Below are positions 3,724 through 26,367 of a DNA stretch of 52,725 nucleotides, in pieces (positions within the stretch are counted from its first letter, which is position 1; every line of letters starts with the position of its first letter). This DNA comes from Fidelibacterota bacterium (GTDB lineage Bacteria; Pseudomonadota; Alphaproteobacteria; Rhodospirillales; Rhodospirillaceae): assembly GCA_947476625.1 (NCBI GenBank), contig CANJRA010000018.1, forward strand, positions 1 to 52,725, given 5' to 3'. A program made the position numbers and the translations under genes. The notes under the pieces are model-generated. The model worked only from the letters and a program-made list of their open reading frames with translations, ran no database searches and was not told the DNA's origin.

Positions 3724-4202
3724 CTATTTCCGGATTCTATTGCCCAATAATTGATTGCTGATCTTAGCTTCGATCTCGACGGTTCCGGCCTTCTCAAAAA
3801 CCAGCGTGATGGGAACGACGTCAAACACAGCCGGCGGCGTGCCGAGATCTGTCAGGCTCACCTCGAGCGCGCCCGGATGAAACGAGACGCGTTTCCCGGC
3901 TCTAATCCTGATGCCGTCGGTTTTTTATTGATGAAGTCCAGGCCGTGCCATTTCCCGCGCCGGAGATGGGACGTTTTGGCGTGGCGGCTGGTGGCCGAGA
4001 TCAGGCTGTCGTCTTTTTCGCCGCGACTGACAACCTCAAAAAATACGCTGATGGTGCCGTCTTCATTGGGAGCGATACGCGCCCATGGTTGGTCGATTTC
4101 GATGGTTCCATCCGCGGACAACGGCGCGGCCATCGCGACCGAACCCAAGGTGATGATCCATAGCAATGTAAAACCACGCCAGAGCATTCTCAGACCGTTC
4201 AT
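3724..4202 (-). pseudogene. PCu(A)C / DUF461-type periplasmic copper chaperone, frameshifted
   Basis: The N-terminal frame starts at ATG 4202 with a signal peptide (GFTLLWIITLGSVAMAAP) and runs through the start of the DUF461 fold to DFINKK. It then slips: the family's C-terminal half, including DGIRIRAGKRVSFHPG, LTDLG and ITLVFEKAGTVEIEAKI, is in the next frame and stops at TAG 3726-3724. Adding one base near the run of six T (3921-3926, plus strand) gives one 160-codon gene. Family members carry Cu(I) to cytochrome oxidase using conserved His and Met. Here the second ligand motif, normally 'HxM', reads PGALEVSL, so copper ligands were probably lost before or with the frameshift. The start overlaps the hydrolase stop by ATGA. 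Confidence 0.8.
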
Positions 4203-5008
4203 TGTAATTTGTTGCGCTTTAGCCATGCGGCGATCACTTCCGCACTGATTTTCAATGTGTCGTCGAGCATCAGGCAATGTCCGGCTTCAGGGATCGTCTG
4301 CAGCTCGGCGCCGAAAAATTCCGCAACAGCCTGGTCTTGCCCGGCAGGGTGCAGGGGGGTGTCGTCCAATGCAGCGGAAATGCAAAGTGTGGGGCCTTGA
4401 ACCCAAGACGGCTGCACGGAAATGGTGCGGCGGTAGCAATCATTGAGAAACGCCGGGCTTTCAGGGCAAAGGCGCGCGAGATAAGGATCGATATCCATGC
4501 GGTGATAGCCTTGCAAAAACCAGCGGTTCGCGCGATCCGGCGGCGGCGGCGATATCAATTTCTCGCTGGGGAAAGGCGGCATGAGGCGGACATCAACATT
4601 CGCTGGCGGGGCAGGGGCAATCATAATAATGCCCGAAGGCCTCACATGTTCCGCCGCCGCCATGGCGGCCAGCGCGCCTAGGCTGTGACCGACCAGAATA
4701 ACCGGGGTTTTGAGGGCCGCTGCGGCTTCGGTGATGTCGGCGGCCATCTCCGCCACACCGGCACGTGCAAAATCGGGCGGTGCGGGAAGCCCGCCATGTC
4801 CGCGCAAATCGATCGCGGCGGCGGGTATCGCGCGTTGTACGAAAAATTCCAGATATTGCGACCAGCACCAGGCGCCGTGAAAACCGCCGTGCACAAACAG
4901 CAGTGTTGGTCGGTTGTGCAGCTCAGTGGACGTCAGGCGTGCCTGACTGAGGCGCTGCTGCTGCATTTTATCGATAAAGGAGAAATCCACGTCGCTGTCC
5001 GCCGTCAC
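4199..5008 (-). CDS. Alpha/beta-fold hydrolase
   Basis: This 269-residue alpha/beta hydrolase has the oxyanion HGG at residues 40-42, the nucleophile elbow GHSLG at 107-111 (Ser109), an acid at Asp215/216 (LDDTPLH) and the catalytic His at 244 (GHCLML). It has no signal peptide, so it is probably cytosolic. The substrate cannot be told from sequence; salicylate-esterase-like and haloperoxidase-like enzymes share this layout. The start is probably GTG at 5008, with an in-frame ATG at 4966 as the alternative; neither has a strong ribosome site. The gene is coupled by a 4-base ATGA overlap to the broken copper-chaperone gene downstream. Confidence 0.88.
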   Translation of the reverse strand: MTADSDVDFSFIDKMQQQRLSQARLTSTELHNRPTLLFVHGGFHGAWCWSQYLEFFVQRAIPAAAIDLRGHGGLPAPPDFARAGVAEMAADITEAAAALKTPVILVGHSLGALAAMAAAEHVRPSGIIMIAPAPPANVDVRLMPPFPSEKLISPPPPDRANRWFLQGYHRMDIDPYLARLCPESPAFLNDCYRRTISVQPSWVQGPTLCISAALDDTPLHPAGQDQAVAEFFGAELQTIPEAGHCLMLDDTLKISAEVIAAWLKRNKLQ

Positions 5009-5205
5009 CGGTTGTTTGCGGTGTAGTTATAGGGCGGGTGCGGCGATTCGTCGCGGTCTATAGAAACGAGGCGGCCCGGCGGCGCAAACGACGCCGCGAT
5101 GTCGCGCCCGGCCGGTATCCCCTTTGCGCCGCAAGACTAAAAGCTGGTTTTTTGAAGCGACCGGTTCACCATTTCAGCTTCCGTTGTGGGGCTGGAGTTG
5201 GGGGT

Positions 5206-5418
5206 ATGGGCCGTTTTATGCTGCTGCAGTCGATGTACGCCGTAACCGGCGTATTATTTTTTGTACGCGATCTTTTTCATAGTGTGCCGATGAACGACGG
5301 CATCGTGAATGCCTTCATCTGGCCCTTTGCGCAGTGGCCGGTGATCAAGGCCGCCGTCTTCCAGATGCTTTATCCGGTAATCGCGGCTGTTCAGCCGGTA
5401 TTTAAAATATTCCACTAG
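5206..5418 (+). CDS. Small, partly hydrophobic protein (70 aa), unknown
   Basis: The ATG at 5206 has GGAG 8 bases upstream, which favours it over the much earlier in-frame ATG at 5038. The product MGRFMLLQSMYAVTGVLFFV... has one hydrophobic N-terminal segment and a second amphipathic stretch near the end (VFQMLYPVIAAVQPVFKI), so it may be membrane-associated. I do not recognise it. It converges with the small membrane ORF at 5428-5574. Confidence 0.6.
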   Translation: MGRFMLLQSMYAVTGVLFFVRDLFHSVPMNDGIVNAFIWPFAQWPVIKAAVFQMLYPVIAAVQPVFKIFH

Positions 5419-5427
5419 CGGGCAGCG

Positions 5428-5574
5428 TTAGGTTTTGGGGTGAGATGCGCGCCATTGCGCATAAGCTTTGCGCATGCGTTCGCGGCGTAAGCGGCACCCT
5501 TCGCACGGCAAGATCAACGCTAAGCCCGCAACGATCACAACGGTCGCGCCGGCGATAATGAGCAGGGCGATCAC
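5428..5574 (-). CDS. Small single-span membrane protein (48 aa)
   Basis: The product starts at GTG 5574-5572, which overlaps the TGA of the ferredoxin gene (GTGA), so the two were probably translated together. It has one transmembrane span (IALLIIAGATVVIVAGLALI), then a CxxC (LPCEGC) and a basic tail (RLRRERMRKAYAQWRASH). This tiny N-in membrane anchor with a CxxC could bind metal or a partner, but no function is known to me. A longer reading from 5709 crosses the broken ferredoxin and is less likely. Confidence 0.55.
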   Translation of the reverse strand: MIALLIIAGATVVIVAGLALILPCEGCRLRRERMRKAYAQWRASHPKT

Positions 5575-5931
5575 AGGACTGGTGGTCCACCGTCCGAAGG
5601 TGCGGCGTCTGCAAGGGCCGTGCGGCGCTCTGCTTCCGCTCGGATTGCTACCATGATGAGGTCGATGTTGGGTCTGAAACATCGCCTTCAAGATTAAAGT
5701 AGTCGGCACTTTGGATTTTCAGGTTGGGGCCGTGCAGACAGTTATTCATGCAAGGCCCTCGCGTGACACTGGCAGGGATGCGTTCGGCCAAAACATGCGT
5801 TCCAGAGCATCGGCCAGACCACGGCTGCCGCGTCCGCCACAGGAGGGGAGGCGGTCGGTATTGAGCCGCTTGTTGATACACACCCGCACTGTGAACAGCG
5901 GTTTTGGGGCGGGCGTCCAGTCTTCGATCAT
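5571..5931 (-). pseudogene. [2Fe-2S] thioredoxin-like ferredoxin, two frameshifts
   Basis: The ATG at 5931 begins MIEDW and the frame runs through KPLFTVRVCINKRL and LPSCGGRGSR (first two Cys of the cluster) to ALER. The second part, with VTRGPCMNNCLHGPNLKI (last two Cys) and ADYFNLEGDVSDP, is in another frame. The last part, IDLIMVAIRAEAERRTAL, is in a third and stops at TGA 5573-5571. Restoring one base near 5795 and one near 5670 gives a 121-codon gene, the usual length for this family of NuoE-like small ferredoxins. The gene follows the NUDIX gene by 2 bases and overlaps the small membrane ORF, so all three probably formed an operon. Confidence 0.8.
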
Positions 5932-5933
5932 AC

Positions 5934-6386
5934 CTAAACTCCGCCCAGCGCAACGGCGGCCTCGATAATGCGAATGGTCTCGCTCCATAGGTTATAGCGC
6001 GCCAGACCGGAAACGGGCACCCATTTGACGTCCGAGGCATCGTCCCCGGCGCGGGCGTTTCCACCCGACCATAGGCCGCGGTAGTCTATCAGGGTCATAT
6101 GCCGCTCAAGCGTGCCTTCGGGCGTATGCCACAGGGCATCGACGACGTCGACGAACCTCAAGCCGGTGACGGTGACGCCGGTTTCCTCCATGAGCTCGCG
6201 ATGCGCGGTTTCTTGTACTGCTTTGCCCCACTCCTGGCAGCCGCCGGGGATACTCCACTCGCCCTGACGCGGCGGGCGTCCGCGCTCGATCAGCAACACT
6301 TCGGGACCGGTCGGGCCGGCGCGGAGCACAACGACCCCAACGCCGATGATTGGCCGAGGGGTCATTGGTGGAGCTGTGTCGGTCAT
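5934..6386 (-). CDS. NUDIX hydrolase (ADP-ribose pyrophosphatase-like)
   Basis: The ATG at 6386 (MTDTAPPMTPRP) is chosen because earlier starts lack any similarity and run into the divergent promoter. The Nudix helix is GGCQEWGKAVQETAHRELMEETG: the metal-binding RELMEE is intact, but the conserved Glu seven residues before it (GX5E) is Lys. The protein should hydrolyse a nucleoside diphosphate linked to another group; ADP-ribose or a dinucleotide is likely from the N-terminal 'GVGVVVLR...VLLIERG' layout, but this is not certain. It is divergent from the DUF502 gene with 38 bases between them. Confidence 0.88.
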   Translation of the reverse strand: MTDTAPPMTPRPIIGVGVVVLRAGPTGPEVLLIERGRPPRQGEWSIPGGCQEWGKAVQETAHRELMEETGVTVTGLRFVDVVDALWHTPEGTLERHMTLIDYRGLWSGGNARAGDDASDVKWVPVSGLARYNLWSETIRIIEAAVALGGV

Positions 6387-6424
6387 AGTGGCAGATACCC
6401 GTGTAAATCTGCGATGATGATGGC

Positions 6425-7108
6425 ATGACTGATCACAAGGCACCACAGCTCCCCACCCATGCGCAGCAGGGCGAATTGCCATGGCGCCAATCCCTGACGG
6501 TACGGCTGCGCAATTACTTCCTGGCCGGGCTGCTCGTGACGGCGCCCATCACCATCACGCTCTTTGCGGCGTGGTGGGTGATTCGCTACATCGACGACGC
6601 GGTTACGGGCTGGCTGCCCGATAGCTACAATCCCAGCAGTTATATCCCCGGCTTTGGCATTGTCATTCTGGTGGCGGTGCTGACCTTGGTTGGATTTCTC
6701 ACCGCCAATTACCTGGGGCATATACTGGTCAGATGGGGCGAGCGCATCGTTGCGCGTTTACCCGTGATCCGCAGCGTCTATTCGGCGATCAAACAAATCT
6801 TCGAAACGGTGTTTTCCAAACAGACGGAATCCTTTCGGGAAGTGGTGCTGGTGGAATATCCACGCAAAGAGATGTGGGCGCTGGGGCTGGTGATCGCCAA
6901 GACTGCGCAGGAGATTCAAAATCAGGCTCCTGCAGAACTGTTCAGCGTATTTATTCCGACAATGTCCTTTACGTCGGGCTATTTGGTTTTCCTGCAGCGC
7001 AAGGACATGACCACGCTCGATATGACGGTTGAGGAATGCTTGAAGATGGTGATATCGGGCGGGATCGTGATGCCGTCGGCAAAGATGATAAAGCCTAACC
7101 AGATCTGA
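6425..7108 (+). CDS. DUF502 family integral membrane protein
   Basis: The ATG at 6425 opens a 227-residue protein. It has two transmembrane segments, LAGLLVTAPITITLFAAWWV near residues 35-55 and GFGIVILVAVLTLVGFLTAN near 80-100, then the family signature 'RLPVIRSVYSAIKQ' and a soluble C-terminal part with 'PTMSFTSGYLVFL'. DUF502 proteins are widespread in bacteria and plants (COV-like), with no settled biochemical role. The last 14 bases overlap the end of the convergent recG, so no terminator separates them. Confidence 0.92.
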   Translation: MTDHKAPQLPTHAQQGELPWRQSLTVRLRNYFLAGLLVTAPITITLFAAWWVIRYIDDAVTGWLPDSYNPSSYIPGFGIVILVAVLTLVGFLTANYLGHILVRWGERIVARLPVIRSVYSAIKQIFETVFSKQTESFREVVLVEYPRKEMWALGLVIAKTAQEIQNQAPAELFSVFIPTMSFTSGYLVFLQRKDMTTLDMTVEECLKMVISGGIVMPSAKMIKPNQI

Positions 7109-9188
7109 GCGTTCTTACCGCATCATCTTGCTCGAATAGATAAAGCAACGTCCGGAGGGCTTCGCCGCGCGAGCTTTCCAGGTTGGCGTCGCGGGCGATG
7201 ATTAGCTTCGCGTCGTCGCGGGCAGCGGCAAGGAGTTCGCCGTGTACCATGAGATCGGCGATCTTGAATTCAGGCAAGCCGCTCTGGCGTGTTCCCAATA
7301 CTTCGCCGCCGCCGCGCAGACGTAAATCCTCCTCGGCGATGATAAAGCCGTCTTCGGTATCGCGCAGGATGTTGAGACGGGACTTTGCGGTTTCGGTGAG
7401 TGGGCCAGCGTACAGCAGGAGGCAGGTGCCGGATTTTCCGCCGCGCCCAATGCGACCGCGCAACTGATGAAGCTGGGCAAGGCCGAAGCGTTCGGCGTGT
7501 TCGATCACCATGATCGTGGCATCGGGAACATCGACGCCGACTTCGATGACGGTTGTTGCGACGAGAACCTGCGCGCCATCGGCGGACGTGAAGGAGTCCA
7601 TGGCGGCGTCTTTTTCGGCCGGTTTCATCTTGCCGTGGATCAGCGCCACTTTGGAACCGAGTATCTGCTTGAGGTGGGCGTGGCGTTCTTCGGCCGCCGC
7701 GAGATCTATCAGTTCGGATTCTTCGACCAGGGGGCAGACCCAATAGATCTTGCCGCCTTTCGCCACGGCGCGGGTGACGGCGTCGACGATTTCATCGAGA
7801 CGTTCAAGGTTTATCAAGCGGGTGTCGACCGGCATGCGGCCGGGCGGCTTTTCGTCGAGGCGTGAGACATCCATGTCGCCGTAGGCCGTAAGGGTGAGCG
7901 TGCGCGGGATCGGCGTGGCGGTCATGACCAGGACGTCGGTGCCATCGCCCTTTGCCGCTAGTTCCAGACGCTGGTGGACACCGAACCGATGCTGCTCGTC
8001 GATGACGGCGAAGGCGAGGTCGTGGAATGCGATGTCTTTCTGAAACAGCGCGTGCGTACCGACAACGATGTTGATGTGCCCGGCGGCGATGTCTTCGAGG
8101 ATGGCGTTGCGGGCGGCACCCTTTACGCGCCCGGTGAGGACTTCGACGCGTACACCGGCGGCGGCGCAAAGCGGTTTCAAGGTTTCGAGGTGCTGTTGTG
8201 CAAGGATTTCGGTCGGGGCCATGAGGGCGGCTTGGGAGCCGGCTTCTACCGCTGCCAACATAGCCATCAACGCGACGATCGTTTTTCCGCTGCCGACATC
8301 GCCTTGCAGGAGGCGCAGCATGCGGTTTTTGCTGACCATATCGGCGAAGATTTCCTCGAGCGCGCGGGACTGGGCGCCGGTGAGGGCATAGGGCAGGGCC
8401 GCTTTCACTTTGCCGCGTAAGATGCCGTCGCCTACCAAGCTGCGGCCGCGACGCTTGCGGGCTTTGAGTCTTACAAGCATGAGTGCAAGCTGGTTGGAAA
8501 GCAGTTCGTCAAAAGCCAGGCGCGCGCGCGCCGGGTGAGAGGGCAGCAAATCTTCTTCGCCGCCCGGTGCATGCACAGCGCGGAGCGCATCGTGCCACGA
8601 CGGCCATTGTTGGCGGGCGAGGTAGGCGGGGTCGAACCACTCCGGCAGGTCGGACGTTTTGGCGAGCGCGGCGCGAATGGACTTCTCGAGGACTTTGGGC
8701 GAAAGGCCTTCGGTCATGGGATAGACCGGCTCGACCCGTTTGACGCTGTCGATCTGGGCTACGGGAACGATGTGATCGGGATGATTCATCTGACGGCGAC
8801 TGTCGAAGACTTCGACCTTACCGCTGACGACGCGTTGCTCGCCCACGGGGAGCGCTTCTTCGAGGTAATCGAGGCGGCCGTGAAAAAAGACCAGCGTAAT
8901 TTTGCCGGTCTCGTCGCCGCAGGTAATGCGGTAGGGAACTTTGCTGCGTGGCGGTGCCGGCGCATGCGCCAGGACGTCGACGATGAGCGTGGCAATTTTG
9001 CCGGCCGGAGCGTCGCCGACCTTGGGCGAGAAGCGCCGGTCCAACACGCCGCTGGGCAGATGCCAGAGCAGGTTCACGACATTCTCGCCCGCGAGTTTTT
9101 CCACTAGTTTGACCAAGCGCGGCCCAATGCCCGGCAAGGTCGTGACCTTGGCGAACAGGGGAAACAGGATGCTTGGGCGAAGGGCCAT
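7095..9188 (-). CDS. recG: ATP-dependent DNA helicase RecG
   Basis: RecG remodels stalled replication forks and Holliday junctions. The N-terminal wedge/OB part is followed by a superfamily 2 motor. Walker A GDVGSGKTIVAL lies near residue 295 and the DEQH box (VIDEQHRFGVHQR) near 395, followed by 'TATPIPRT' and the C-terminal helicase motifs ('VATTVIEVGVDVPDAT', 'QLRGRIGRGG'). The ATG at 9188 (MALRPSILFPLF) gives about 697 residues, the normal size; upstream in-frame starts add an atypical extension. It is the only gene of its transcript visible here and converges on DUF502. Confidence 0.96.
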   Translation of the reverse strand: MALRPSILFPLFAKVTTLPGIGPRLVKLVEKLAGENVVNLLWHLPSGVLDRRFSPKVGDAPAGKIATLIVDVLAHAPAPPRSKVPYRITCGDETGKITLVFFHGRLDYLEEALPVGEQRVVSGKVEVFDSRRQMNHPDHIVPVAQIDSVKRVEPVYPMTEGLSPKVLEKSIRAALAKTSDLPEWFDPAYLARQQWPSWHDALRAVHAPGGEEDLLPSHPARARLAFDELLSNQLALMLVRLKARKRRGRSLVGDGILRGKVKAALPYALTGAQSRALEEIFADMVSKNRMLRLLQGDVGSGKTIVALMAMLAAVEAGSQAALMAPTEILAQQHLETLKPLCAAAGVRVEVLTGRVKGAARNAILEDIAAGHINIVVGTHALFQKDIAFHDLAFAVIDEQHRFGVHQRLELAAKGDGTDVLVMTATPIPRTLTLTAYGDMDVSRLDEKPPGRMPVDTRLINLERLDEIVDAVTRAVAKGGKIYWVCPLVEESELIDLAAAEERHAHLKQILGSKVALIHGKMKPAEKDAAMDSFTSADGAQVLVATTVIEVGVDVPDATIMVIEHAERFGLAQLHQLRGRIGRGGKSGTCLLLYAGPLTETAKSRLNILRDTEDGFIIAEEDLRLRGGGEVLGTRQSGLPEFKIADLMVHGELLAAARDDAKLIIARDANLESSRGEALRTLLYLFEQDDAVRTLRSG

Positions 9189-9340
9189 AGGAAATCTGAA
9201 GCCTAGGAAGGATGACGGGCTGACAGGGCGGTCTAATAGCATTATATCCAAGCAACCTCACGGGAGGTCAATTTTGGGGGACCAAAATCGGCCAAGCCCG
9301 GGGGATATTTTTGTTTGGTTCCCGGAATTCACAGAGAATC

Positions 9341-9622
9341 ATGACATTGCCGCCCATCACCGACCCGCGCCGGAAGCGCATTCTGTACCGCGCCACCCAT
9401 CGCGGTACCAAGGAATCCGACGCCATTGTCGGAGGGTATTTCAGCGAGATCGCGGGGACAATTCCTGACGACAAGCTGGATGAAGCCGACGCGCTTCTGG
9501 ATGAGGCCGACCTGGACCTGGTGGATTGGATCATGGGCCGCCAACCGGTTCCCGACCGTTGGCGGAACACATTATTCGACGGCGTGTTGGCATATTACGA
9601 AAAGCTTGCGAAGCGTAGGTGA
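9341..9622 (+). CDS. sdhE: Succinate dehydrogenase assembly factor 2 (SdhE family)
   Basis: SdhE helps insert FAD covalently into the flavoprotein subunit of succinate dehydrogenase. The 93-residue product has the family signature RGTKESD (RGxxExD) near residue 20 and the acidic 'LDEADLDLVDWIMGRQPVP' region. The start is ATG 9341; the ribosome site is weak (AGAG). Its stop overlaps the ATG of mfd as TGATG, so the two are translationally coupled; the sdhE-recG/mfd neighbourhood is common in alphaproteobacteria. Confidence 0.92.
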   Translation: MTLPPITDPRRKRILYRATHRGTKESDAIVGGYFSEIAGTIPDDKLDEADALLDEADLDLVDWIMGRQPVPDRWRNTLFDGVLAYYEKLAKRR

Positions 9623-13139: not shown

Positions 13140-13426
13140 TTACGCTGTAGCGAGGTGGCCTGCAGCCGCGGCAGGTACGTGCGGCATGGTCGCTGCAGCC
13201 GTAGCAGCCAATTCTTTTTCGACAAAACGCATTGCGATGCGCACGCGGTCACGGTCGTCCGGTGTCGTGAAGTCGACGTTGAACAAGCGCACAACCGGGA
13301 CAACAGTGGGATCGTGCCCAATGAGTTCGATCGCAAAGGGCGAGCGAGAAGCTTTGGTCACAAGCGCTTCAAATTTTGCGGCGCTGATGTTGGTTCTGAA
13401 AGTGGGTCGCAACAGAACTCGTTCAT
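13140..13426 (-). pseudogene. Small conserved-looking gene with probable one-base deletion near its start
   Basis: The body reads ISAAKFEALVTKASRSPF... through FVEKEL, ending at TAA 13142-13140; I do not recognise the family. In the body frame the only start is a TTG (13412) with no ribosome site. One frame away, an ATG at 13424-13426 lies exactly 9 bases after a perfect GAGGAG (13436-13441). It reads MNEF before meeting a different frame. Adding one base within GTTCTGTTG joins the two as MNEFLLRPTFRTN and gives 96 codons. Either the gene lost one base or it really uses TTG. Confidence 0.5.
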
Positions 13427-13617
13427 TGGCCCTGACTCCTCAAACGGCGGTCGAATCGATGGTCTTAGGATGCGACAGGGAGGGTAAGAAAATGGTTAAC
13501 GCCGCCGCGCGTTCATTTTGCGCTGAATCATAATAAATACATAAATATCAATGGGTTGGCCGCGCGTCTTAGCGTCGGCAATTTCTGCGGGGGAAAAGAG
13601 TTAATGCCGCCTGGGTA

Positions 13618-14352: not shown

Positions 14353-15597
14353 TTGCCGACATTTTCCGAAGCGCTCCGGTTTTGGCTCAAGCTGGGTTTT
14401 ATCAGCTTTGGCGGCCCGTCGGGTCAGGTTGCGATTATGCAGCATGAACTGGTGGATCAGCGCCGCTGGATCGGCCAGGACGCGTTCCTGCAGGCGCTTA
14501 ACTTCTGCATGCTTCTGCCTGGCCCCGAAGCGCAGCAGCTTGCTACCTATATTGGCTGGAAGCTTCATGGTCTCAAGGGGGGACTTGCGGCGGGCATCCT
14601 GTTCGTATTGCCGGGCGCGTTTGTCCTCTATGGACTAGCTTGGATTGCGGCAAAACACGGTGACATGGCCGTCGTCAACGCGGTCTTTTCCGGTTTGAAA
14701 CCGGTTGTCGTGGCGATTGTGATACACGCTCTCTGGCGCGTTGCCCGCCGGATTCTTACGACCGCCAAAGCCACCATACTGGCGGTAGCGGCCTTTGCCG
14801 CGCTTGAAGTGTTTCATGTGCCGTTTCCGCTGATTGTGCTGGGCGCTGGCGTCATCGGCTGGCTTACGTCGCGCAAAAATATCATTGAGAACGAAACTGC
14901 GACGGCGGAAACATTCGATACCCCGCGGCGTATCAGCGCGAGAGTTCTGCGGATGATTTTAATTTACGCGGGGTTGTTAATCGTGCCCGTCGGGACCGTG
15001 ATTGCATTTACCGGACCAGAACCCTTTTTGGTGATCGCGCGGTTTTTTACACAAGCGGCGTTTGTTACTTTCGGCGGGGCCTACGCGGTTTTGCCCTACG
15101 TTGCAGAGGCCGCGGTCAATCATTTCCACTGGTTGAGCCCCGACGAAATGATCAATGGCTTGGCGCTGGCTGAAACGACACCCGGTCCCTTGATCCTAGT
15201 GCTGCAGTATGTGGGATTCTTCGCTGGGTGGAATGCAAATAGCGGGATGAGTCCGTTGACTGCCGCGACGATAGGCGCGGTAATAACAACCTACGCCACG
15301 TTTCTGCCGTCGATATTCTTCATTCTCACGGGCGCGCCGTATATCGAACGCATCGCACGCATCAAAGGCGCTGCCGGTGCGCTGGCGGCCATTACAGCGG
15401 CGGTGGTTGGGGTCATCGCGACGTTGGCTGTGTTTTTCGCGCGTGAAGTTGTGTTCAAGCAAAGCGCTGCAATCGACTACGCCGCGGTATGCGTTATCGT
15501 TGTTGCGCTCGGTGTTTTAATTCGCTTCAAGCTTAGCCTGCATTGGGTGGTGCTGGCGGGGGCGCTTTATGGTCTTGCGTGCATGGCGCTGGCCTAG
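14353..15597 (+). CDS. chrA: Chromate efflux transporter ChrA
   Basis: ChrA exports chromate across the inner membrane. The 414-residue protein is the long, two-domain (CHR-CHR) form. The first half has GFISFGGPSGQVAIM and LPGPEAQQLATYIGW; the second has AAFVTFGGAYAVLPYV and TTPGPLILVLQYVGF, with about ten hydrophobic spans in all. The start is TTG 14353, because an in-frame TAG stands shortly before it and no ATG is near. The stop overlaps the end of the convergent response-regulator gene by two bases. Confidence 0.92.
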   Translation: MPTFSEALRFWLKLGFISFGGPSGQVAIMQHELVDQRRWIGQDAFLQALNFCMLLPGPEAQQLATYIGWKLHGLKGGLAAGILFVLPGAFVLYGLAWIAAKHGDMAVVNAVFSGLKPVVVAIVIHALWRVARRILTTAKATILAVAAFAALEVFHVPFPLIVLGAGVIGWLTSRKNIIENETATAETFDTPRRISARVLRMILIYAGLLIVPVGTVIAFTGPEPFLVIARFFTQAAFVTFGGAYAVLPYVAEAAVNHFHWLSPDEMINGLALAETTPGPLILVLQYVGFFAGWNANSGMSPLTAATIGAVITTYATFLPSIFFILTGAPYIERIARIKGAAGALAAITAAVVGVIATLAVFFAREVVFKQSAAIDYAAVCVIVVALGVLIRFKLSLHWVVLAGALYGLACMALA

Positions 15598-16400
15598 GCT
15601 TTTTCCTTCCCCGCGTCTTCGCGTTCGCCAATCCATAGGTGATAGCTATCGGCATGCCCGCCAGCGACACCCAAAAGGCGATCGAGGATCGATTGCTTTA
15701 ACGGGGCGCCGGCACTGAGCAGAAGGTGACCATCTTTGTCGTGCAAATCGCGTGCGAGGACATTGCCAGGCTGGACCTTTGCCAGTCATGTCATATGCAC
15801 GTTGATGAGTTTGGCGCTGGCTGGGGCCGGCGGAGGTGGCTGCTTAGCTACTGCACGCGCAGCAGGGGCGGCGGGATCGCGGCGCGCCGGTTCCTTGCCG
15901 ACGTGTACGCGCGGTTCAGGTTGTATGGCGGTATCTACAACAGGAACCGCAGCATAATGACTCGGCTGCTGCAGCAGCCACGTGCGGGTTAAGGCGTGGG
16001 AAACGGTTTTGACAAGTTTTTCAAACGAGAGCGGTGCAACCGCGAAACCATTCACATCCAAAGCCATGGCAGCTTTCACGGCCGCAGCGTCCGCGCGTGC
16101 CGTTAAGATAACAACAGGTGTGCGCGGCGACGTCTTGGGCAGGGTACGGCAGCAAATCTTGCGTAGGAGTTCGAGGCCACCAACCGGCGTCATGTCCCAA
16201 TCGCAGACGACGCAGTTGATCTCTTGTCCGTAGCGATTGAGAGTCTCGATCGCCTTATCTACACTGGTGGCGTGCTTGACGCTTTTAGCGCCGGCGCCAA
16301 GCAAAGCCGATTGCACCATCTCGCGATACATCGCTTTTGCATCCACGACCATGAACGTCGTTTTGGATAGGTTCAGATCGCTCGGCACATTGACGTTCAT
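15594..16400 (-). pseudogene. Response regulator interrupted by in-frame TGA
   Basis: The ATG at 16400 has GGAGG 9 bases upstream. Residues 1-145 form a CheY-like receiver with the phospho-acceptor Asp in CDWDMTPVGG and Thr in ILTA; the conserved Lys before the last helix is Ala (VAPLSFEKL). A Pro/Ala linker follows, then KLINVHMT and a TGA (15788-15786). The same frame continues without break for 63 codons, LAKVQPGNVLARDLHDKDG...LLLSAG...ILDRLL, to TAG 15596-15594. This is a domain often found after receiver or before HD-type output domains ('pG.vLA.Dl.d..G.lLl..G'). A single base change in a Trp or Arg codon would create this TGA. Confidence 0.75.
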
Positions 16401-16713: not shown

Positions 16714-17798
16714 ATGAACGCTAAACCCTTGGTTAGATTACCTGAGCGCCAATCGGCCACTCTGCAAGACCCACGCTGGGCGACAGTGGTTGGGCGCGAC
16801 CCGGCTCAGGAGGGCGGCTTTTACTATTCCGTGGCCACGACGGGGGTGTACTGCCTGCCTTCTTGTTCCGCGCGACGGCCGCGCCCTGAACATGTGCGAT
16901 TTCATGCAAACCCAGCCGCGGCGGAAAAGCCGGGTTTCGGGCGTGCAAGCGCTGCAAGCCGGATCGGGAATCATCCAGGGTGCAACAGGCAAAGATCGTC
17001 GCCGCGGCGTCCCGATTTATTGCGGACAGTGAAACTGAGCCGGACTTGGCGACCTTGGCTGCAAGGGCGGGGCTGAGCGCTTCGCATTTCCATCGTTTGT
17101 TTAAACGGGCGACCGGCTTGACACCAAAAGGCTATGCCAGCGCGCACCGCGAGAGCCGGGTACGAGGTGTCTTGAAGAATGGCGCATCTGCGACGGAAGC
17201 TATCTTTGAGGCGGGTTACAATGCCACCAGTCGCTTTTATGAGAAATCAAATGCGCTGCTTGGGATGACGCCGACAGCTTACCGGGCAGGCGGGGCGGAC
17301 ACATCGATACGGTTCGCTGTCGGCAAATGCTCATTGGGATCGGTTTTGGTGGCGCAGAGCGCGTTGGGCGTGTGCGCGATTTTGATCGGAGACAATTCGA
17401 AAGTGCTGGTGCGCGAGTTGCGAGATTATTTTCCGCACGCGGAATTGAACGCCGCACATAAGGATTTCAAGAAAGTCATCGCGCGTGTAATCGATTTTGT
17501 GGACACACCTGAAATCGGGCTCGATCTGCCGTTAGATATCCGCGGCACGGCTTTTCAGAAACGGGTTTGGCGTGCGTTGAGTAAGATTCCGACCGGCAAA
17601 ACGGTTACTTATAGCGAGGTCGCGAAACGCATAGGCGCGCCCAAATCGGTTCGCGCAGTGGCAAGCGCCTGTGCTGCCAATACGCTGGCTGTAGCCATTC
17701 CCTGCCACCGGGTATTGCGTTCTGACGGAAGTTTGTCGGGTTACCGCTGGGGCGTCGCGCGTAAACGCGCACTGCTGAAGAAAGAGTCCAGCCGCTAG
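16714..17798 (+). pseudogene. ada: Ada: bifunctional methyl-accepting regulator and O6-methylguanine methyltransferase, frameshifted
   Basis: Ada removes methyl groups from DNA and activates the adaptive response. The ATG at 16714 follows GAAGG. The first frame holds the N-terminal zinc part with Cys47 and Cys51 (VYCLPSCSARRP) and ends at AAAEK. The second frame gives GFRACKRCKPD, with the other two zinc Cys, then the AraC helix-turn-helix (ATLAARAGLSASHFHRLFKR) and the methyltransferase with active-site PCHRV. One base is missing near 16926-16930; restoring it gives 362 codons, the standard length. As written, only the downstream part could be made, from an internal start around 16980. It would lack the zinc sensor but keep DNA binding and the PCHR transferase. 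Confidence 0.88.
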
Positions 17799-18205: not shown

Positions 18206-18235
18206 AGAAAACGAGCCAGGATTTCTCCTGGCCCG
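18206..18235 (-). terminator. Terminator after the SH3-domain gene
   Basis: On the minus strand a stem with CCAGGA/TCCTGG at its core (18216-18221 with 18226-18231), extended by three more pairs and one mismatch, is followed by TTTTCTT. It lies just after the stop of the gene at 18259. Confidence 0.7.
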
Positions 18236-18258
18236 TTTGAGCGCGTTAAACTTGTAAG

Positions 18259-18813
18259 TTAGCGACGGCTGGGATTGTTCGGGGCGTTGTCGCGGTTATT
18301 ACGCACGCCGTCTCCGTCCCGGTCGCGATCGACGCGATTTGGAACGCCATCGCCATCGCGGTCACGGTCCAAACGGTTCGGTACGCCGTCATGATCTTGA
18401 TCGCGGGTCCAATTGCGCCACCGTTCACGCCAATTATCGCGGTCGTGATAGAAAGCCGCCCGGCGATAGTGGTTATCCCAATAATTGTCGAAGCTAAAAG
18501 TCAGTACGGGCACGCGAACGCGGGGACCGTACTCGACGACGCCGACGCGGCGACCCTGATATGGAATCGCGAGCGAGCTTCCGTCGACCCAACCGCGTGT
18601 ACGGCCTTTGGAAACATCACACCAGTCATAACGGTTGAGGCAACCATGAACCGTCACTTTGGCATTGCGCCCAATCGAAACAATCGTTGGATAATCGCGT
18701 CCTGGGCCGGCTCGTAGATTGAGGCGCTCGGTTGTGTAACCGGTTGCGGCCTGTGCAACGGCTGATACGGTCATGGCCGCCGAGAGCAGCGGCAGTGCAT
18801 ATCGTATTTTCAT
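18259..18813 (-). CDS. Secreted SH3b-domain protein with calcium-binding-type repeats
   Basis: The ATG at 18813 follows GGAGAG and opens a signal peptide (KIRYALPLLSAAMTVSAVAQA). A bacterial SH3 domain follows: TERLNLRAGPGRDYPTI ... GWVDGSSL (about residues 25-85). After a Tyr/Trp-rich middle, the C-terminus carries three Asp-rich units of the type DRDGDGVPNRxDRD, like thrombospondin type 3 repeats, which bind calcium in other proteins. It is probably an envelope or extracellular protein binding cell wall or surface structures. A terminator follows the gene. Confidence 0.82.
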   Translation of the reverse strand: MKIRYALPLLSAAMTVSAVAQAATGYTTERLNLRAGPGRDYPTIVSIGRNAKVTVHGCLNRYDWCDVSKGRTRGWVDGSSLAIPYQGRRVGVVEYGPRVRVPVLTFSFDNYWDNHYRRAAFYHDRDNWRERWRNWTRDQDHDGVPNRLDRDRDGDGVPNRVDRDRDGDGVRNNRDNAPNNPSRR

Positions 18814-18911
18814 CACATCTCTCCTTGCTGAAATCTTTTCGCTGACACCTCCATTGATGGCGGCATCAGTAAGAACACAACGCGGCAAAAGACGAGATGT
18901 TTCGTGAGGCG

Positions 18912-19829: not shown

Positions 19830-19854
19830 GGGATGTTACCTGCTGAAACATGAA

Positions 19855-19879
19855 CGGGGACCGCATGTTGCGATCCCCG
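19855..19879. other. Hairpin between DUF72 and a small membrane-protein gene
   Basis: CGGGGA (19855-19860) pairs with TCCCCG (19874-19879) and encloses a second pairing, CGCA/TGCG, across a TGT loop. There is no T tract on either strand, so it is more likely an RNA-processing or leader structure than a terminator. Confidence 0.5.
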
Positions 19880-19931
19880 CTCTAAATGGCGCGCACCAAA
19901 CTATTGTCTGCGCCGATGTGATGTCGGTTCT

Positions 19932-20051
19932 TTAAACCAGTTTTCGGTCCGTGGTCCGTGCGCGGAGTTCACGGTAAGCGGCCCACACGACGGCGGCCAG
20001 GGCGACCATCAAAGCGGTATCAATCAGCGGGGAATATTCAAGAAAGTCCAT
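19932..20051 (-). CDS. 39-residue single-span membrane protein
   Basis: This small gene has a perfect GGAGGAAAC just before ATG 20051. The product, which starts MDFLEYSPLIDTALMVALAA, has one transmembrane span and a basic tail (REL...RTTDRKLV). An AGCCCC/GGGGCT hairpin (20064-20077) sits right upstream of the ribosome site. Size and shape resemble small subunits of membrane complexes (for example CcoQ-like or PetL-like proteins), but no partner gene is adjacent, so function is open. Confidence 0.7.
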   Translation of the reverse strand: MDFLEYSPLIDTALMVALAAVVWAAYRELRARTTDRKLV

Positions 20052-20290
20052 GTTTCCTCCTGCAGCCCCTCGGGGCTAAATTGACTATTCCGTCTCGCGG
20101 CTCGGCGTGTCTACCGTGCGTGACGGGGTTATATAATCAACGCACGACCAATGCGGTGGTTGCTGACGGCTAGGCTTTTTCTTTGGGAAATGCGGCAGTT
20201 AGCCTTCGCGCCGGTTGTAGATACCGCGTGACCTCCCAGTAAAAGTGGAATTCACCTTGACCAAAACCGGCTCGTCCGCTCAATAAAAGC

Positions 20291-20974
20291 ATGTGCGGAC
20301 GTTACAAGGTCACCACGCCCACGGGCGTCATCATTGAGAATTTCCAAATTCGGCAAGGTCGGCCCAATTTGGAAGCCCGCTACAATATTGCGCCCACTCA
20401 AATCGCGCCTATCGTCCGGCAAACGCCGAACGGGCGGCAGCTGGCAATGATGCGCTGGGGTTTAATTCCGTCGTGGGCGAAGGATTCCAAAATCGCTTTC
20501 AGCACGATCAATGCGCGCGCAGAAACCGTGCATGAAAAACCAGCCTTTCGCGATGCGCTGAAACATCGCCGCTGCCTGGTCATCGCGGACGGATATTATG
20601 AATGGAAAACCGAAAAGGGCGGCAAGCAGCCGTATCTCTTCGCGTGTAAGGATGATCAGCCCATGGCCTTTGCCGGACTGTGGGAGCGGTGGGAGAGGGG
20701 GCCGGAGCCGGTCGATTCATTCACGATCGTCGTGACCGAGAGCAACGCGTTGACGCAGCAAATCCATGATCGCATGCCGGTGATCTTGGCGCCGGAGCGC
20801 TATGATGCATGGCTTAGCGCCGACGCGGCGGAGGCAACGGCACTACTCAGGCCGTGTGCCGAGGATCTTCTGAGCATGCGGCCGGTGAGCCGGGCTCTGG
20901 GAAACGTCCGAAACGAAGGCCCGGCATTGCTGGACGTGGAGGAAAGCCCGATGCCATCGTTGTTTCCGTCATAA
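20291..20974 (+). CDS. SOS response-associated peptidase (SRAP / YedK family)
   Basis: SRAP proteins form covalent links with abasic sites in single-stranded DNA and shield them. Cys2 (after Met removal) is the active residue, followed by YNIAPTQ, MRWGLIPSWAKD, NARAETVHEKPAF, the catalytic Glu in DGYYEWK and the His in QQIHDRMPVIL; all match the family. At 227 residues it has the typical length. The start is ATG 20291. It stands upstream of tRNA-Ser with no operon partner. Confidence 0.95.
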   Translation: MCGRYKVTTPTGVIIENFQIRQGRPNLEARYNIAPTQIAPIVRQTPNGRQLAMMRWGLIPSWAKDSKIAFSTINARAETVHEKPAFRDALKHRRCLVIADGYYEWKTEKGGKQPYLFACKDDQPMAFAGLWERWERGPEPVDSFTIVVTESNALTQQIHDRMPVILAPERYDAWLSADAAEATALLRPCAEDLLSMRPVSRALGNVRNEGPALLDVEESPMPSLFPS

Positions 20975-21067
20975 CATTGTGCCCACCGAAAGCCGTCTTG
21001 CGGCCACCAAAAAAAGGCCTTTCAAAGGTAGCGCTAAAGTTTGCTATAAGCTGCCTCGCGTTTCCAT

Positions 21068-21157
21068 GGAAGGGTGGCCGAGCGGTTGAAGGCACCGGTC
21101 TTGAAAACCGGCAGGCCCGAAAGGGCCTCGTGGGTTCGAATCCCACCCCTTCCGCCA
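21068..21157 (+). tRNA. tRNA-Ser (anticodon TGA)
   Basis: The acceptor arm GGAAGGG pairs with CCCTTCC. There is a long variable arm (GGCAGGCCCGAAAGGGCCTC), the anticodon stem CCGGT/ACCGG encloses the loop CTTGAAA (TGA), and the T arm is GTGGGTTCGAATCCCAC. The encoded GCCA completes the 3' end. It is a class II tRNA, as expected for Ser. Confidence 0.97.
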
Positions 21158-21286
21158 TAATCCCCCGATGTGAAACCGACATATCACCAACATGGCGCAT
21201 AAGCGCGAAGCTTCTCGGAAGGGATGTTTTTCCCCGGCGTAAGCGTGTAAAAATCATGCGGGCTTTATACGTGGGGAATTCAGGGC

Positions 21287-21550
21287 ATGACGGCGCAGTT
21301 TGGTATACCTCCGGTGATCGGAGTTATTGGCGGGTCGGGGATTTACGATTTAGACGGTCTGACGTCCAAGACATGGCGGAAGGTCAATACGCCGTTCGGT
21401 GATCCTTCGGACGAGCTTCTGCACGGGGAATTAAACGGACAGAAGATGGTCTTCCTGCCGCGCCACGGCCGCGGCCACAAGCGTTCGCCGACGGACCTTA
21501 ATTATCGCGCCAATATATGCGCCCTGAAGATGGCCCGCGCCAGACCTTGA
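21287..21550 (+). pseudogene. mtnP: S-methyl-5'-thioadenosine phosphorylase (MtnP), N-terminal third only
   Basis: ATG 21287 begins MTAQFGIPPVIGVIGGSGIY. The family blocks GDPSDELLHGELNGQKMVFLPRHGRGHKRSP and LNYRANICALKMA follow. The match stops at about 21535, where a normal protein would continue for roughly 200 residues; four unrelated codons (RARP) lead to TGA. The missing part contains most of the purine- and phosphate-binding site, so no enzyme can be made. The following DNA is the C-terminal half of an unrelated enzyme. Confidence 0.88.
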
Positions 21551-22643
21551 TGATATGGCCTCATTTAAATCGCGTGCGACGGCCGCTTTCGACAGTTTTG
21601 CCGCACGCTGCCATGCGTATTTCCGTAAGCACAATGCGCGGCAAGATCCGCCTAAGACCGAACTCGATCCGCTGCCGCGGGTCATTCTTGTTCCAGGCGT
21701 AGGCTTGTTTGGACTGGGTGCTAGTAAGTCCGCGGCCAAAATTGCCGGCGACATCGCCGAGAGTACGATCAAAACCGTCACCGATGCGGAAGCCATCGGC
21801 CGTTACAAATGTCTCGACGAAGCCGATCTGTTCGACATGGAATACTGGTCGTTGGAGCAGGCAAAGCTTGGCAAAGGCAAGGAGGCCAGTCTCGCGCGTC
21901 GGGTGGTTGTGGTGACGGGCGGCGCATCGGGTATCGGCAAGGCCGTTGCGCAAGCGTTCAAACGGGAAGGCGCTGAGGTTGCGATCCTCGATCTTCCCGG
22001 CGAAGCGCTGACCGATGCAGCGAAAGCCTTAAAGTGCGCGGCGATCGGATGTGATGTTACCAATGCCGATGCAGTGAAGACTGCTTTTGCAAAAGTCGCC
22101 GAAACCTTCGGCGGTGTCGATATTGTCGTATCCAACGCCGGTAAAGCTTGGCAGGGAAAAATCGGCACGGTCGACGAGAAGGTGCTGCGCGACAGTTTTG
22201 AATTGAATTTTTATGGCCATCAAAGAGTCGCCCAGGCGGCGGTAGACGTGATGACCAAACAGGGTTTTGGCGGTGCACTGCTGTTCAACATCTCGAAGCA
22301 AGCCGTGAACCCCGGTCCCGATTTTGGCCCATATGGCTTGCCAAAAGCGGCGGCGCTGGCGCTTATGCGCCAATATGCTGTCGATTACGGTGCTGAGGGC
22401 ATTCGTGCGAATGGTGTCAATGCCGACCGCATCCGCTCGGGCCTGCTGACTGACTCCATGATCGCGGAGAGATCGCGCGCACGTGGCCTTTCGGAGCAGA
22501 ATTACATGGGCGGCAATTTGTTGGCGCGCGAGGTAACGGCGGATGACGTGGCGCAAGCCTTTGTGACACTCGCACTCGCCGAAAAAACCACTGGAGCGAT
22601 CCTCACCGTAGACGGCGGCAATATCGCTGCGGCGTTACGTTAG
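21542..22643 (+). pseudogene. C-terminal short-chain dehydrogenase half of a bifunctional aldolase/SDR
   Basis: The frame entering at about 21542 reads PDLDDMASFKSRATAAF and then the linker LDPLPRVILVPGVGLFGLG and DMEYWSLEQAKLGK, which in other bacteria connects an N-terminal class II aldolase to a C-terminal SDR (rhamnulose-phosphate or lactaldehyde type). The SDR has VVTGGASGIG, Ser in NISKQ and the YGLPK catalytic pair, and ends normally. The whole aldolase half is absent. The in-frame ATG at 21555 has no ribosome site, so an SDR-only product is doubtful but not impossible. Confidence 0.85.
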
Positions 22644-22670
22644 CATCGCGCGGGAAGGTGTTTAGGTCCG

Positions 22671-23453
22671 TCATGATTCGGCGGTCCGCGCGCTTTCGTG
22701 CCAATGCCGTAACAGGTATCGCGATAAAGCATCCAGCAAGAGGTACAGTACAAAACCGGTTGCGCTGAGCAGCGCAAAACATGCCAGCGCGCGGGCCAGT
22801 TCCAGGCGATAGCTGGCTTCCAACAGCCGCGATGCTAGGCCCGAACTCGTACCCGACGTGCCTGCGACCATTTCCGCCACGACCGTGCCGATAAGTGCAA
22901 GTCCTCCGCTAATGCGTAAGCCGCCCAAAAAATAGGGCAAGGTGCTGGGTGCTAGTAACCGTGTCATCACCTGCCAGCGGCTTGCGCCGTAGAGAAGGAA
23001 CAGATCACGCAAATTTGTGTCAACGCTTTTGAGCCCGAGGAGCGTATTCGAAATGATCGGAAACACCGCTGCGACCCAGGCTAGGATCAACAGCACGATG
23101 AAAATATTATTCACCCAAATGATGACAAACGGAGCAATGGTGACGATGGGCGTGACTTGCAGGAAGACCGCATAGGGGAAAAATGTCCGCTCGGCGGTAG
23201 GCGACTGCGCCAATAAGAACGCAATCGCGGCGCCGGTTAGTGCGGCGAGCACGAGAGCCGCAATGGTTACTTCCAGGGTCACGGCCAGTGCACCGAGCAG
23301 TTCAGGTCCATCCGACCACAATGCGCCAGCCACGGCGCTTGGGCCGGGGAGAACATATTCGGGCACGGCATAGACGTGAACGAGAATTTCCCATGCGGCC
23401 AATAGCAGAATCCCAAACACGACGGGCAGCACCATTCGGACCGCGCGACTCAT
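22671..23453 (-). CDS. ABC transporter permease (NitT/TauT family)
   Basis: Six hydrophobic spans and the BPD-type signature (around ISNTLLGLKSVDTNLRDL and LYGASRWQVMTRLLAPSTLPYFLGGLRI, the EAA loop) identify an importer permease. Its start ATG overlaps the ATPase stop by ATGA. The gene is the third of a three-gene operon; its product forms the membrane channel for the substrate delivered by the binding protein. Confidence 0.93.
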   Translation of the reverse strand: MSRAVRMVLPVVFGILLLAAWEILVHVYAVPEYVLPGPSAVAGALWSDGPELLGALAVTLEVTIAALVLAALTGAAIAFLLAQSPTAERTFFPYAVFLQVTPIVTIAPFVIIWVNNIFIVLLILAWVAAVFPIISNTLLGLKSVDTNLRDLFLLYGASRWQVMTRLLAPSTLPYFLGGLRISGGLALIGTVVAEMVAGTSGTSSGLASRLLEASYRLELARALACFALLSATGFVLYLLLDALSRYLLRHWHESARTAES

Positions 23454-24199
23454 GAGGCGGCCCTCTGTTGGAGAGCTTCGTTAAGACGGTTGCTAATGTC
23501 GGCGCATTGATCGGCGAAGGCGTGACTTAGCCGCACACCGGCATCGCGCGAGGACGGCAGTTGGGTGGGGAGATCGGCAATGATACGGCCGGGATGTGGC
23601 GACATCACCAAAACCCGTTCGGACAGAAAGACCGCTTCGCGGACGGAGTGGGTGACAAAAACAATCGTCCAGCCGTTCTGCTGCCAGAGCGCGAGCAAAT
23701 CGTCGTTAAGCTTAAAACGCGTGAACTCATCAAGCGCGGCGAAAGGTTCGTCCATCAGAAGCAGGCAAGGACCGGTGACGATGGCGCGCGCGATAGACAC
23801 ACGCATTTTCATGCCGCCGGACAATTCGCGGGGATAAGCCAGCGCGAAACCGCTGAGGCCGACCCGCTCAAGTGCCTCGGTGATGGGTTGGTTGATTTCG
23901 CCTTCAGACATGCCCGCGAGGCGCAGGGGCAAGGCGACATTGTCGGTGACTGTCGCCCAGGGCATCAAAGTCGCATCCTGGAAAACGAAGCCCGTACTCA
24001 ATGGGCCAGGACGCGTGATCGTTCCGGTGGTGGGTTGCGTCAGGCCTGCTATCAGCCGCAGCAAAGTTGATTTGCCGCAACCCGAAGGCCCGACGATGCT
24101 GACAAAGCGGCCACTGCCAATCTCAAGAGTGACGGGCACGAGGGCGGTCGTGCCGTTCGCAAAAGTCTTGCCGACGCCGGTGACGGTAACGGCGCTCAA
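23450..24199 (-). CDS. ABC transporter ATP-binding protein (NitT/TauT family)
   Basis: Walker A is GPSGCGKST near residue 39, the Q loop lies at FQDATLMPW, and the signature LSGGMKMRVSIARA is followed by Walker B LLLMDEPFAALDE and the switch His in VTHSVREA. The closest named relatives are SsuB/TauB-type ATPases, which energise import of nitrate, taurine or alkanesulfonates, or of vitamin precursors. It overlaps both neighbours by four bases, showing a tight operon. Confidence 0.94.
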   Translation of the reverse strand: MSAVTVTGVGKTFANGTTALVPVTLEIGSGRFVSIVGPSGCGKSTLLRLIAGLTQPTTGTITRPGPLSTGFVFQDATLMPWATVTDNVALPLRLAGMSEGEINQPITEALERVGLSGFALAYPRELSGGMKMRVSIARAIVTGPCLLLMDEPFAALDEFTRFKLNDDLLALWQQNGWTIVFVTHSVREAVFLSERVLVMSPHPGRIIADLPTQLPSSRDAGVRLSHAFADQCADISNRLNEALQQRAAS

Positions 24200-25194
24200 C
24201 GCGAACCTTTGCCGATAAAATCCAGCGTATAGGCCTGACGATAATCCATGGCGGCGGGGTAAACACCGTCGGCGGCCATGACATCGAAAAAAGCTTTCCA
24301 GCGGGCGTTGGTCATCATGCCAAGACCGCCATTTTTGGAATCTCCCGAATCGACAATCCCGTAAGCGCGCAATTTTGAACGGCCATAGGCCAAGAGTTCG
24401 TCGGTCATGTCGGGGTTGTCGCGCTTGATGAGTGCATCGGCGGGGGCCGGATCGCCGTTAAGGTAACTGGTCCAGCCTTCAATGGTAGCATAGACAAAAC
24501 GCTTCACCAGTGCCGGGTTGTCCTGCACCATTTTGCGCGGCACGATGATAAGGGAGGCGTAGCTGGTATAGCCCGCATCCGACAGGAGCATCACAACGGG
24601 CTTGATGCCAACGCGTTCGAGTTGGAAGGGTTCACTGGTCGCATATCCTTGCTGGATAGATGCGCGGTCCGCCAAAAATGGCGCGAGATTGAAAGTGTAT
24701 GGCGCGATCTGATCGTCGGTGAAGCCATATTTCGATTTCAAGAAACGCCAAAATCCGATGCGGGTGTCGGGCGAGATCATGATCTTCTTGCCCTTGAGCG
24801 CGGCGATATTGTCGTTGCCTTGGCCGGGATGGGCGATCAGCACCGCGGGATCTTTTTGGAACATACTGGCGACGGCAACCACCGGCACCTTCTGCGCAAC
24901 GAAATTCAGCGGAATGAAGGAATTGGGAGCGATGCTGATGTCGAGTTTGCCGGCCGCCAATAACTGGGAGTGGTTTACCTGTGGGCCGCCTTGGCGGATC
25001 GTCACATCAAGACCGGCTTTGGCATATAGACCCATGGCAAGGGCCTGATAGTAGCCGCCATGTTCGGCCTGCGCGCGCCAGTCGGTGCCTACCGCGAGTT
25101 TATCAGCAGCCGATGCCGATGAAGCGCAAATCAATGCAAACGCGATAACAGCGTTCCGGAACCAAGCGGCGGGCAGGGCGGCGTGATGCGTCAT
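24196..25194 (-). CDS. Periplasmic substrate-binding protein (NMT1/THI5-like)
   Basis: The first gene of the operon encodes a signal peptide (NAVIAFALICASSASAAD) and an NMT1/SsuA-type fold. The stretch 'AEHGGYYQALAMGLYAKAGL' and 'IRQGGPQVNHSQLL' resembles binding proteins for pyrimidine or thiamine precursors. No TPP or FMN riboswitch is seen in the short upstream gap, so the substrate stays open. A broken adenylate cyclase lies 45 bases upstream on the same strand. No clear Shine-Dalgarno precedes the ATG. Confidence 0.9.
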   Translation of the reverse strand: MTHHAALPAAWFRNAVIAFALICASSASAADKLAVGTDWRAQAEHGGYYQALAMGLYAKAGLDVTIRQGGPQVNHSQLLAAGKLDISIAPNSFIPLNFVAQKVPVVAVASMFQKDPAVLIAHPGQGNDNIAALKGKKIMISPDTRIGFWRFLKSKYGFTDDQIAPYTFNLAPFLADRASIQQGYATSEPFQLERVGIKPVVMLLSDAGYTSYASLIIVPRKMVQDNPALVKRFVYATIEGWTSYLNGDPAPADALIKRDNPDMTDELLAYGRSKLRAYGIVDSGDSKNGGLGMMTNARWKAFFDVMAADGVYPAAMDYRQAYTLDFIGKGSR

Positions 25195-25239
25195 GGACTA
25201 ATTGTGACGCATCTTGTGGCCGCTGGGCTAGGCCGTTGT

Positions 25240-26367
25240 TTAGATCTTGAACGTGCCGCCAGGCGCGCCCGCGGCTGGTGCCGCCGCAGCAGCCGCCGCG
25301 CCGGGTTTTGCTACCTTTTGCGAAGCCTGTTCTTCGAGCGGGTAGACTTTGAACAGCTCCGGCGGATTGGCGATGTTTTTCATCGGCAAACGGCCCATGG
25401 ATTGAAAGTGAGCCGGCACCTTGTTGCGCTTGGCGTTTGCGATGACATCTGACACGGCAATGACGTCCGGATCGGCTTTCGGTTCAATACGGGCCGCGAT
25501 GTTCACGCCTTCGCCGAACACGTCGGTACCTGTGTGGATGACCTCGCCCATATGCAGACCAATGCGGATATGAAACTGATCGTTCTCCGGCTTACCCTTG
25601 TTGTAGTCGCCGATGCCCTACTGACAATCCATGGCGCACTGAACGGCATTTTCCGCCGAACGCAATCGCACCATGAAGGCATCGTCGATGGTCTTGATGA
25701 CCGTGCCGCGATTGCGCACGATCTGATTACGCATGATTTCGTTATGAATGTTGAGTTTCTTGACCATCGCGGCTTCGTTAGCACCCATCTGCTTTGAATA
25801 GCCGACGATGTCAGTAAACATGGTGGCCGTCAGCTGCCGCTTCGGGTTTTTGGCGGTGCCTTCGTCCATACCTTCCAGCTCGGCATCGCTCTTGCGGAAC
25901 TTGTTCAGCAGCCTGAGCGGGTTGATCGGCGCGAGCAATCGGCCAAGGCCCATCGTCACGAGGGCCAGGATAAAGGCTTGGACCGCGCGCGACACACCCC
26001 AAACCCCAATGCCCGTGAATAACGCCGCAAACCAAATACTCTTTGCCGTTACGAGCCAGCCCGCGGGCGTATAGTCCACGACGTAGCTGGAGGTTTTGTA
26101 AAGGGCATAGGTCTGAATCATCGTGTAGACATAAATCAACGCGCAACCGAGCGCCTTGATGGGGTTTTCGGTGTAGAGGCGGAGTATGACCAGAGCGATC
26201 AAAAGGCCGATGTAGGCGAGGGATAGCACGGGCGAATGCGCTTGAATGTCGATCGCGCCGGCGAACATATTGGAGACTCAGTCGCTCAAGAACCCATTGG
26301 TCTGTTGGACTTGAGCGAGCTCTTTGACCGCGTCGGCCGCATAGGTAAAGTTTGGATCTTCCGCCAT
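25240..26367 (-). pseudogene. Membrane-bound class III adenylate/guanylate cyclase with two in-frame stops
   Basis: ATG 26367 opens MAEDPNFTYAADAVKELA...FLSD, then TGA (26280-26278), then VSNMFAGAIDI. All are in one frame and fit a continuous N-terminus in which Trp would be natural at the TGA. Four transmembrane segments follow, then the cyclase domain: ATMFTDIVGYSKQMG (first metal Asp), IKTIDDAFM, and AMDCQ directly before a TAG (25620-25618). The same frame resumes GIGDYNKGKPE, HIRIGLHMGEV, GVNIAARIE and ends at TAA 25242-25240. Without the two stops this would be a 375-residue cyclase. Each stop needs only one base change. Downstream internal starts (26268, 25551) could give fragments, but not an active enzyme. 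Confidence 0.85.

Follow-up and report, generated by a model that had tools for sequence, protein, structure and literature searches.

Probable young pseudogenes among accessory and signalling genes of an uncultured alphaproteobacterial lineage

Introduction

Young bacterial pseudogenes are described by Kuo and Ochman (2010; PMC2916853) as arising mostly from single small inactivating changes, and their numbers vary widely among close relatives. The lesions considered here resemble that set, since most are single small changes and the flanks are still conserved. They differ in coming from an uncultured lineage, known from a draft genome that has no same-species counterpart, so that resequencing cannot separate error from decay. 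A second precedent is given by the spurious pseudogenes of low-coverage assemblies, which are described (PMC11017572) as single frameshifts or stops in otherwise conserved genes. Our lesions share this appearance, but they are accompanied by a deletion, by genes with several lesions and by a functional bias.

For one of the loci, the closest described system is the DHAP shunt for methylthioadenosine, in which mtnA is combined with an aldolase; the source also refers to a variant that involves a phosphorylase (PMC10986504). The corresponding congener locus likewise combines mtnA and an aldolase; unlike in the shunt as outlined there, the aldolase of the congeners is fused to a short-chain dehydrogenase (SDR) domain, and the present genome has lost the locus by deletion.

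Genomes and lesion search

The window, i.e. the whole analysed stretch of 52,725 nucleotides, is contig C18 of a draft genome of 2.62 Mb, which comprises 50 contigs and has a completeness rating of 100% and a contamination of 0.48%; the genes of the window are alphaproteobacterial. The comparison set comprised 18 congeners, among which G009, G016, G011, G015, G001 and G003 were used most. Lesions were located by a purpose-written protein-to-DNA alignment of congener open reading frames (ORFs) to the window, which crosses shifts and stops. An automatic filter based on 40-codon flanks and third-position bias was applied inside the window and to the congener-covered part of the approximately 945 kb outside it. 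The outside count is a lower bound, because the filter misses short lesions and those near gene ends and catches three of the seven broken window loci. For the age of the lesions, we counted changes unique to one genome at positions where at least three others agree; the Ada and PCuAC genes gave no counts. A search of the window against Rfam returned two tRNAs only; a short stretch at 2021-2313 resembles congener DNA in several frames, with stops present, and has no Rfam match.

Results

Broken genes of the window

An earlier sequence-only reading had listed five one-base losses in four genes, three in-frame stops in two genes and one gene-gene junction, and every one of these lesions in the left half was found against the congeners (Table 1). 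The codon counts that it gave (160, 121, 96 and 362) agree with the coordinates, 121 without the stop codon and the others with it. Each broken gene carries an inactivating change relative to intact congener orthologues, as judged for the PCuAC gene by its profile match and by intact congener copies. All five frameshifts are one-base losses within or adjoining runs of three or four identical bases.

Table 1. Broken genes in the window and elsewhere in the genome; window positions unless a contig is named.
Feature	Position	Strand	Lesion or evidence
PCuAC copper chaperone gene	3724-4202	-	one-base loss near 3898; profile match and intact congener copies
Ferredoxin-like gene	5571-5934	-	two one-base losses, near 5793 and near 5670; congener alignments
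96-codon gene of no assigned family	13140-13426	-	one-base loss near 13403
Response-regulator gene, C-terminal part conserved	15594-16400	-	in-frame TGA at 15788
Ada-type DNA alkylation repair/regulator gene	16714-17798	+	one-base loss near 16927
mtnP 5' stub, about 87 codons	21287-21550	+	matches residues 3-96 of the G009 protein
SDR-domain 3' remnant of bifunctional aldolase/dehydrogenase gene	21531-22643	+	open; out-of-frame fusion to mtnP stub
Class III nucleotide cyclase gene	25240-26367	-	in-frame TGA at 26280 and TAG at 25620
Outside: three GGDEF genes and one weak EAL-like gene	C1:326545-327918, C2:3387-4995, C3:45034-45806, C3:20292-21549		broken; single genes below
Outside: PAS/GAF-GGDEF gene			stop, two shifts, in-frame losses
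Outside: GGDEF-EAL gene			stop and loss at start of GGDEF domain
Outside: GGDEF gene			one shift
Outside: gene with weak EAL match			match of 23.3 bits, below the 31.3 cut-off
Outside: glutamine amidotransferase; glycosyltransferase; gene without Pfam match			broken

In the PCuAC gene, two pieces in different frames match positions 1-46 and 73-109 of the PF04314 profile, each singly below the curated cut-off; in a second profile search the later piece matched positions 59-109, above the cut-off. A second PCuAC gene, apparently intact, is found on contig C24 of this genome, and intact copies occur in congeners too. The ferredoxin-like gene, which has no Pfam match, is presumably of this type by its cysteine pattern. 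Its shift near 5793 is present in six of six alignments and that near 5670 in five of six, among the congener ORFs listed. The gene is near full length and stop-free in 14 of the 18 congeners and partial in G013, and no copy was found in three incomplete genomes. For the 96-codon gene, among the 11 congener ORFs listed, seven place a -1 shift at 13405-13408 and one at 13378, and the rest consist of one other shift at 13432, one downstream-only alignment and one shadow hit.

Orthologues of the response regulator occur in 13 of the 18 congeners (one with an inner stop), near-full-length orthologues of Ada in nine, and the cyclase in 15, of which two contain an inner stop somewhere along the gene. 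The G009 cyclase (G009:C9:62037-62684) lies inside a long contig and aligns with no more than the second half of its G015 counterpart, which indicates an independent truncation. In the cyclase of this genome, a glycine beside the second conserved aspartate of the catalytic domain is replaced by aspartate. Selenocysteine was considered for the TGA codons; at 26280 the G015 protein has tryptophan, which speaks against it. Window flags upstream of probable starts (e.g. 5154, 9253, 23483, 34521, 35764, 42715 and 47351) were discounted, and 35510-35761 was scored as intact with less certainty.

The mtnP-mtnA-aldolase junction

The 362 codons that follow the stub of mtnP, presumably the gene for methylthioadenosine (MTA) phosphorylase, gave matches in 12 congeners. 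In 10 of these, the match is to the second half of an open frame of 679-716 amino acids; the remaining two matches fall in shorter open frames of 380 and 225 amino acids. The gene order on G010:C122 is mtnP, mtnA, aldolase/SDR and ABC permease, compared with mtnP stub, SDR remnant and ABC permease in the window, and colinearity to the right of the junction continues to 24300. G011:C113 has the same genes as G010:C122 plus one intervening ORF. The alignment of these orders fits one deletion of about 2.8 kb, which would have taken out mtnA. No mtnA was found anywhere in this assembly (E <= 1e-10; rated 100% complete), and the gene is present in 15 of the 18 congeners, while mtnP, of which this genome has the stub only, is found in 13. 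Because the mtnA removed by it is not found elsewhere in the assembly, the deletion is probably real.

In congeners, the neighbour of mtnP and mtnA is an aldolase gene that carries a fused short-chain dehydrogenase domain. Judged from this gene order, the congener locus may encode a fused form of the DHAP shunt.

A gene for tRNA-Ser(TGA) at 21068-21157 adjoins mtnP, and its orientation relative to mtnP is opposite in G009 and G010; its use as a marker of an identical left flank was therefore dropped. In G009, tRNA-Ser and the SRAP gene are about 19 kb apart, with other DNA between them. Because of the reversed tRNA gene, the left flank of mtnP appears to be rearranged, and a local misassembly there keeps a small residual probability.

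The left half compared with the rest of the genome

By eye, seven of 24 loci are broken in the left half of the window and none of 23 in the right half (one-sided Fisher P 0.0055); the automatic filter flagged 3/19 and 0/22, respectively (P 0.09). Elsewhere in the genome, 10 of 293 genes were flagged (10 of 279 at first, in a smaller sample), and seven of these are convincing by eye. The left half modestly exceeds this background (3/19 against 10/293, P 0.04; against the seven convincing genes, P 0.02) as a region that had been picked post hoc for its richness in lesions. Among the flags, C1:286914 was dropped as an event upstream of the probable start that is absent against G009, and C2:25990 and C8:9549 were dropped because they look like shadow frames. 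C1:338122 was kept with less confidence, as under the strict filter it is flagged solely in the comparison with G016, whose own copy is irregular.

The sequence-only reading had placed all lesions in an accessory left half. The right half indeed contains none by the criteria used, but broken genes are scattered elsewhere in the genome, and the strong form of a special decay zone is therefore rejected. The left half is accessory only in part, since recG and mfd lie inside it and are both intact. That reading had also proposed looking for further pseudogenes genome-wide, which the seven convincing cases supply, and for insertion sequences, the load of which is low in the one transposase family searched (PF01609; two matches here and 0 to 5 in the 18 congeners).

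When the filter was turned round on congener stretches, it flagged 3/357 genes in G009 and 5/175 in G016, which were not vetted by eye. The 10/293 of this genome is higher than the value for G009 (P 0.02) and similar to that for G016 (P 0.49).

Signalling genes among the outside breaks

Of the seven convincing outside breaks, three concern GGDEF genes. Two outside genes have lost 19 to 45 codons in frame, besides having stops or shifts. Six GGDEF loci were identified when 998 kb of this genome were searched with the profile: the three broken ones, two whole and one open but without the motif. The last three lie outside the lesion scan, with no congener stretches covering them. GGDEF genes are broken in 3/3 of the cases tested compared with 4/290 other genes (P 8e-6, post hoc), and in 3/6 if the three unscanned ORFs are taken as intact (P 1.6e-4, post hoc). 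The G009 sample (551 kb) contains three GGDEF ORFs with full domains and the G016 sample (592 kb) two; the G016 copy of the PAS/GAF-GGDEF gene has a flagged stop upstream. Together with the weak EAL-like gene outside and the nucleotide cyclase and response regulator in the window, the three GGDEF genes form a set of broken signalling genes for which the sampled congeners keep matching genes. FlhA was not found in a search of this genome alone. A limited search revealed no literature that by title concerns GGDEF decay in reduced or freshwater genomes.

Age of the lesions

Unique changes on the branch of this genome are few in the ferredoxin-like gene (one amino-acid and five silent changes in 127 codons; congeners 1-2 and 0-4) and in the 96-codon gene (three and one in 106 codons; congeners 1-3 and 1-2). 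The response regulator has 10 amino-acid and 16 silent changes in 241 codons (congeners with data 9-16 and 8-17 in 209), the SDR remnant nine and 21 in 369 codons (G009: 23 and 38 in 681) and the cyclase 13, two stops included, and 16 in 388 codons (four congeners 2-10 and 5-17 in 220-386). For the mtnP stub, one amino-acid and 10 silent changes in 82 codons were counted in the window genome alone. Thus, unique amino-acid change is slightly raised in the cyclase only, and not in the ferredoxin-like gene, the response regulator or the SDR remnant. Because five testable loci show little or no surplus amino-acid change on this branch, the counts fit lesions that are young, as had been proposed from the sequence, or else are errors.

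Discussion

We consider it rather probable that most of the lesions mark genuine, recent pseudogenes, formed from genes that are often lost in the genus. Selection on several accessory and signalling functions would have weakened in this lineage, and the genes would have been broken by commonplace small indels and nonsense changes, and in one case by a deletion of about 2.8 kb, with their remains still un-erased. The left half may be richer in lesions because it holds more dispensable genes, rather than as a special zone. Ada, the response regulator, the cyclase and mtnP are missing or broken in congeners too and therefore fit ordinary recurrent loss, and the lesion types are mixed (losses, stops and a deletion). 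Relaxed selection would be the cause.

The main competitor, to which we assign a lesser but appreciable chance, is consensus error. In this case, low coverage or noisy reads would have produced the majority of the one-base losses, along with some stops, and the true pseudogene load would be small. The five window shifts are all of one sign, and each is located within or next to a short run. Low coverage is reported to create spurious frameshifts and stops (PMC11017572), and in some Salmonella genomes false pseudogenes are reported to have arisen to a large extent from run-length errors (PMC2916853). The ferredoxin-like gene looks like the best candidate for a sequence error, or else for a very recent event, because it carries two losses and yet is unbroken in 14 congeners and otherwise conserved, with one unique amino-acid change. 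However, errors are blind to function and would be expected to spread evenly, which was not observed, and the concentration of GGDEF genes among the outside breaks argues against random error. The long in-frame losses in two outside genes and the mtnP-mtnA-aldolase deletion are also hard to square with it, and the surplus of amino-acid change that a noisy consensus would give near lesions is absent, except perhaps in the cyclase. Assembly error, already named as a competitor in the sequence-only reading, thus retains its force for the one-base losses but sits poorly with the deletion and the bias towards c-di-GMP genes.

It is possible, although less likely than not, that the lineage is now dismantling second-messenger signalling and that most young lesions reflect one coordinated change of life style, e.g. 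from attached to free-floating, instead of random decay.

Early reductive evolution following a move into a host or a stable niche, which the sequence-only reading had proposed, is improbable. Young lesions at several loci and a lesion rate above that of G009 would agree with it. Against it stand the scattered breaks genome-wide, the similar rate in G016, a genome size (2.6 Mb) like that of G009 and G016 (2.7 Mb), the conserved recG and mfd and the untouched right half. Neither a high pseudogene fraction, in the congener-covered part of the genome, nor expanded insertion sequences, for PF01609, were seen, and the low transposase load leaves a host shift unsupported. Recoding, in which programmed frameshifts or stop read-through bridge the frames of genes that still work, would account for the protein conserved on either side of the lesions, but is very improbable, as none of the alignments made revealed a congener with a shift or stop at a matching position, the pair of losses in the small ferredoxin-like gene leaves the frame unrestored, and no signal common to the sites was noticed.

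If some of the lesions are errors, they illustrate that early decay can be mimicked by a draft genome, and either way the window alone shows no host shift. If the lesions are real, they represent gene losses of recent date in a wild lineage of freshwater type, biased towards c-di-GMP and cyclic-nucleotide signalling and including the loss of methylthioadenosine salvage, in which the order of function loss could be watched.
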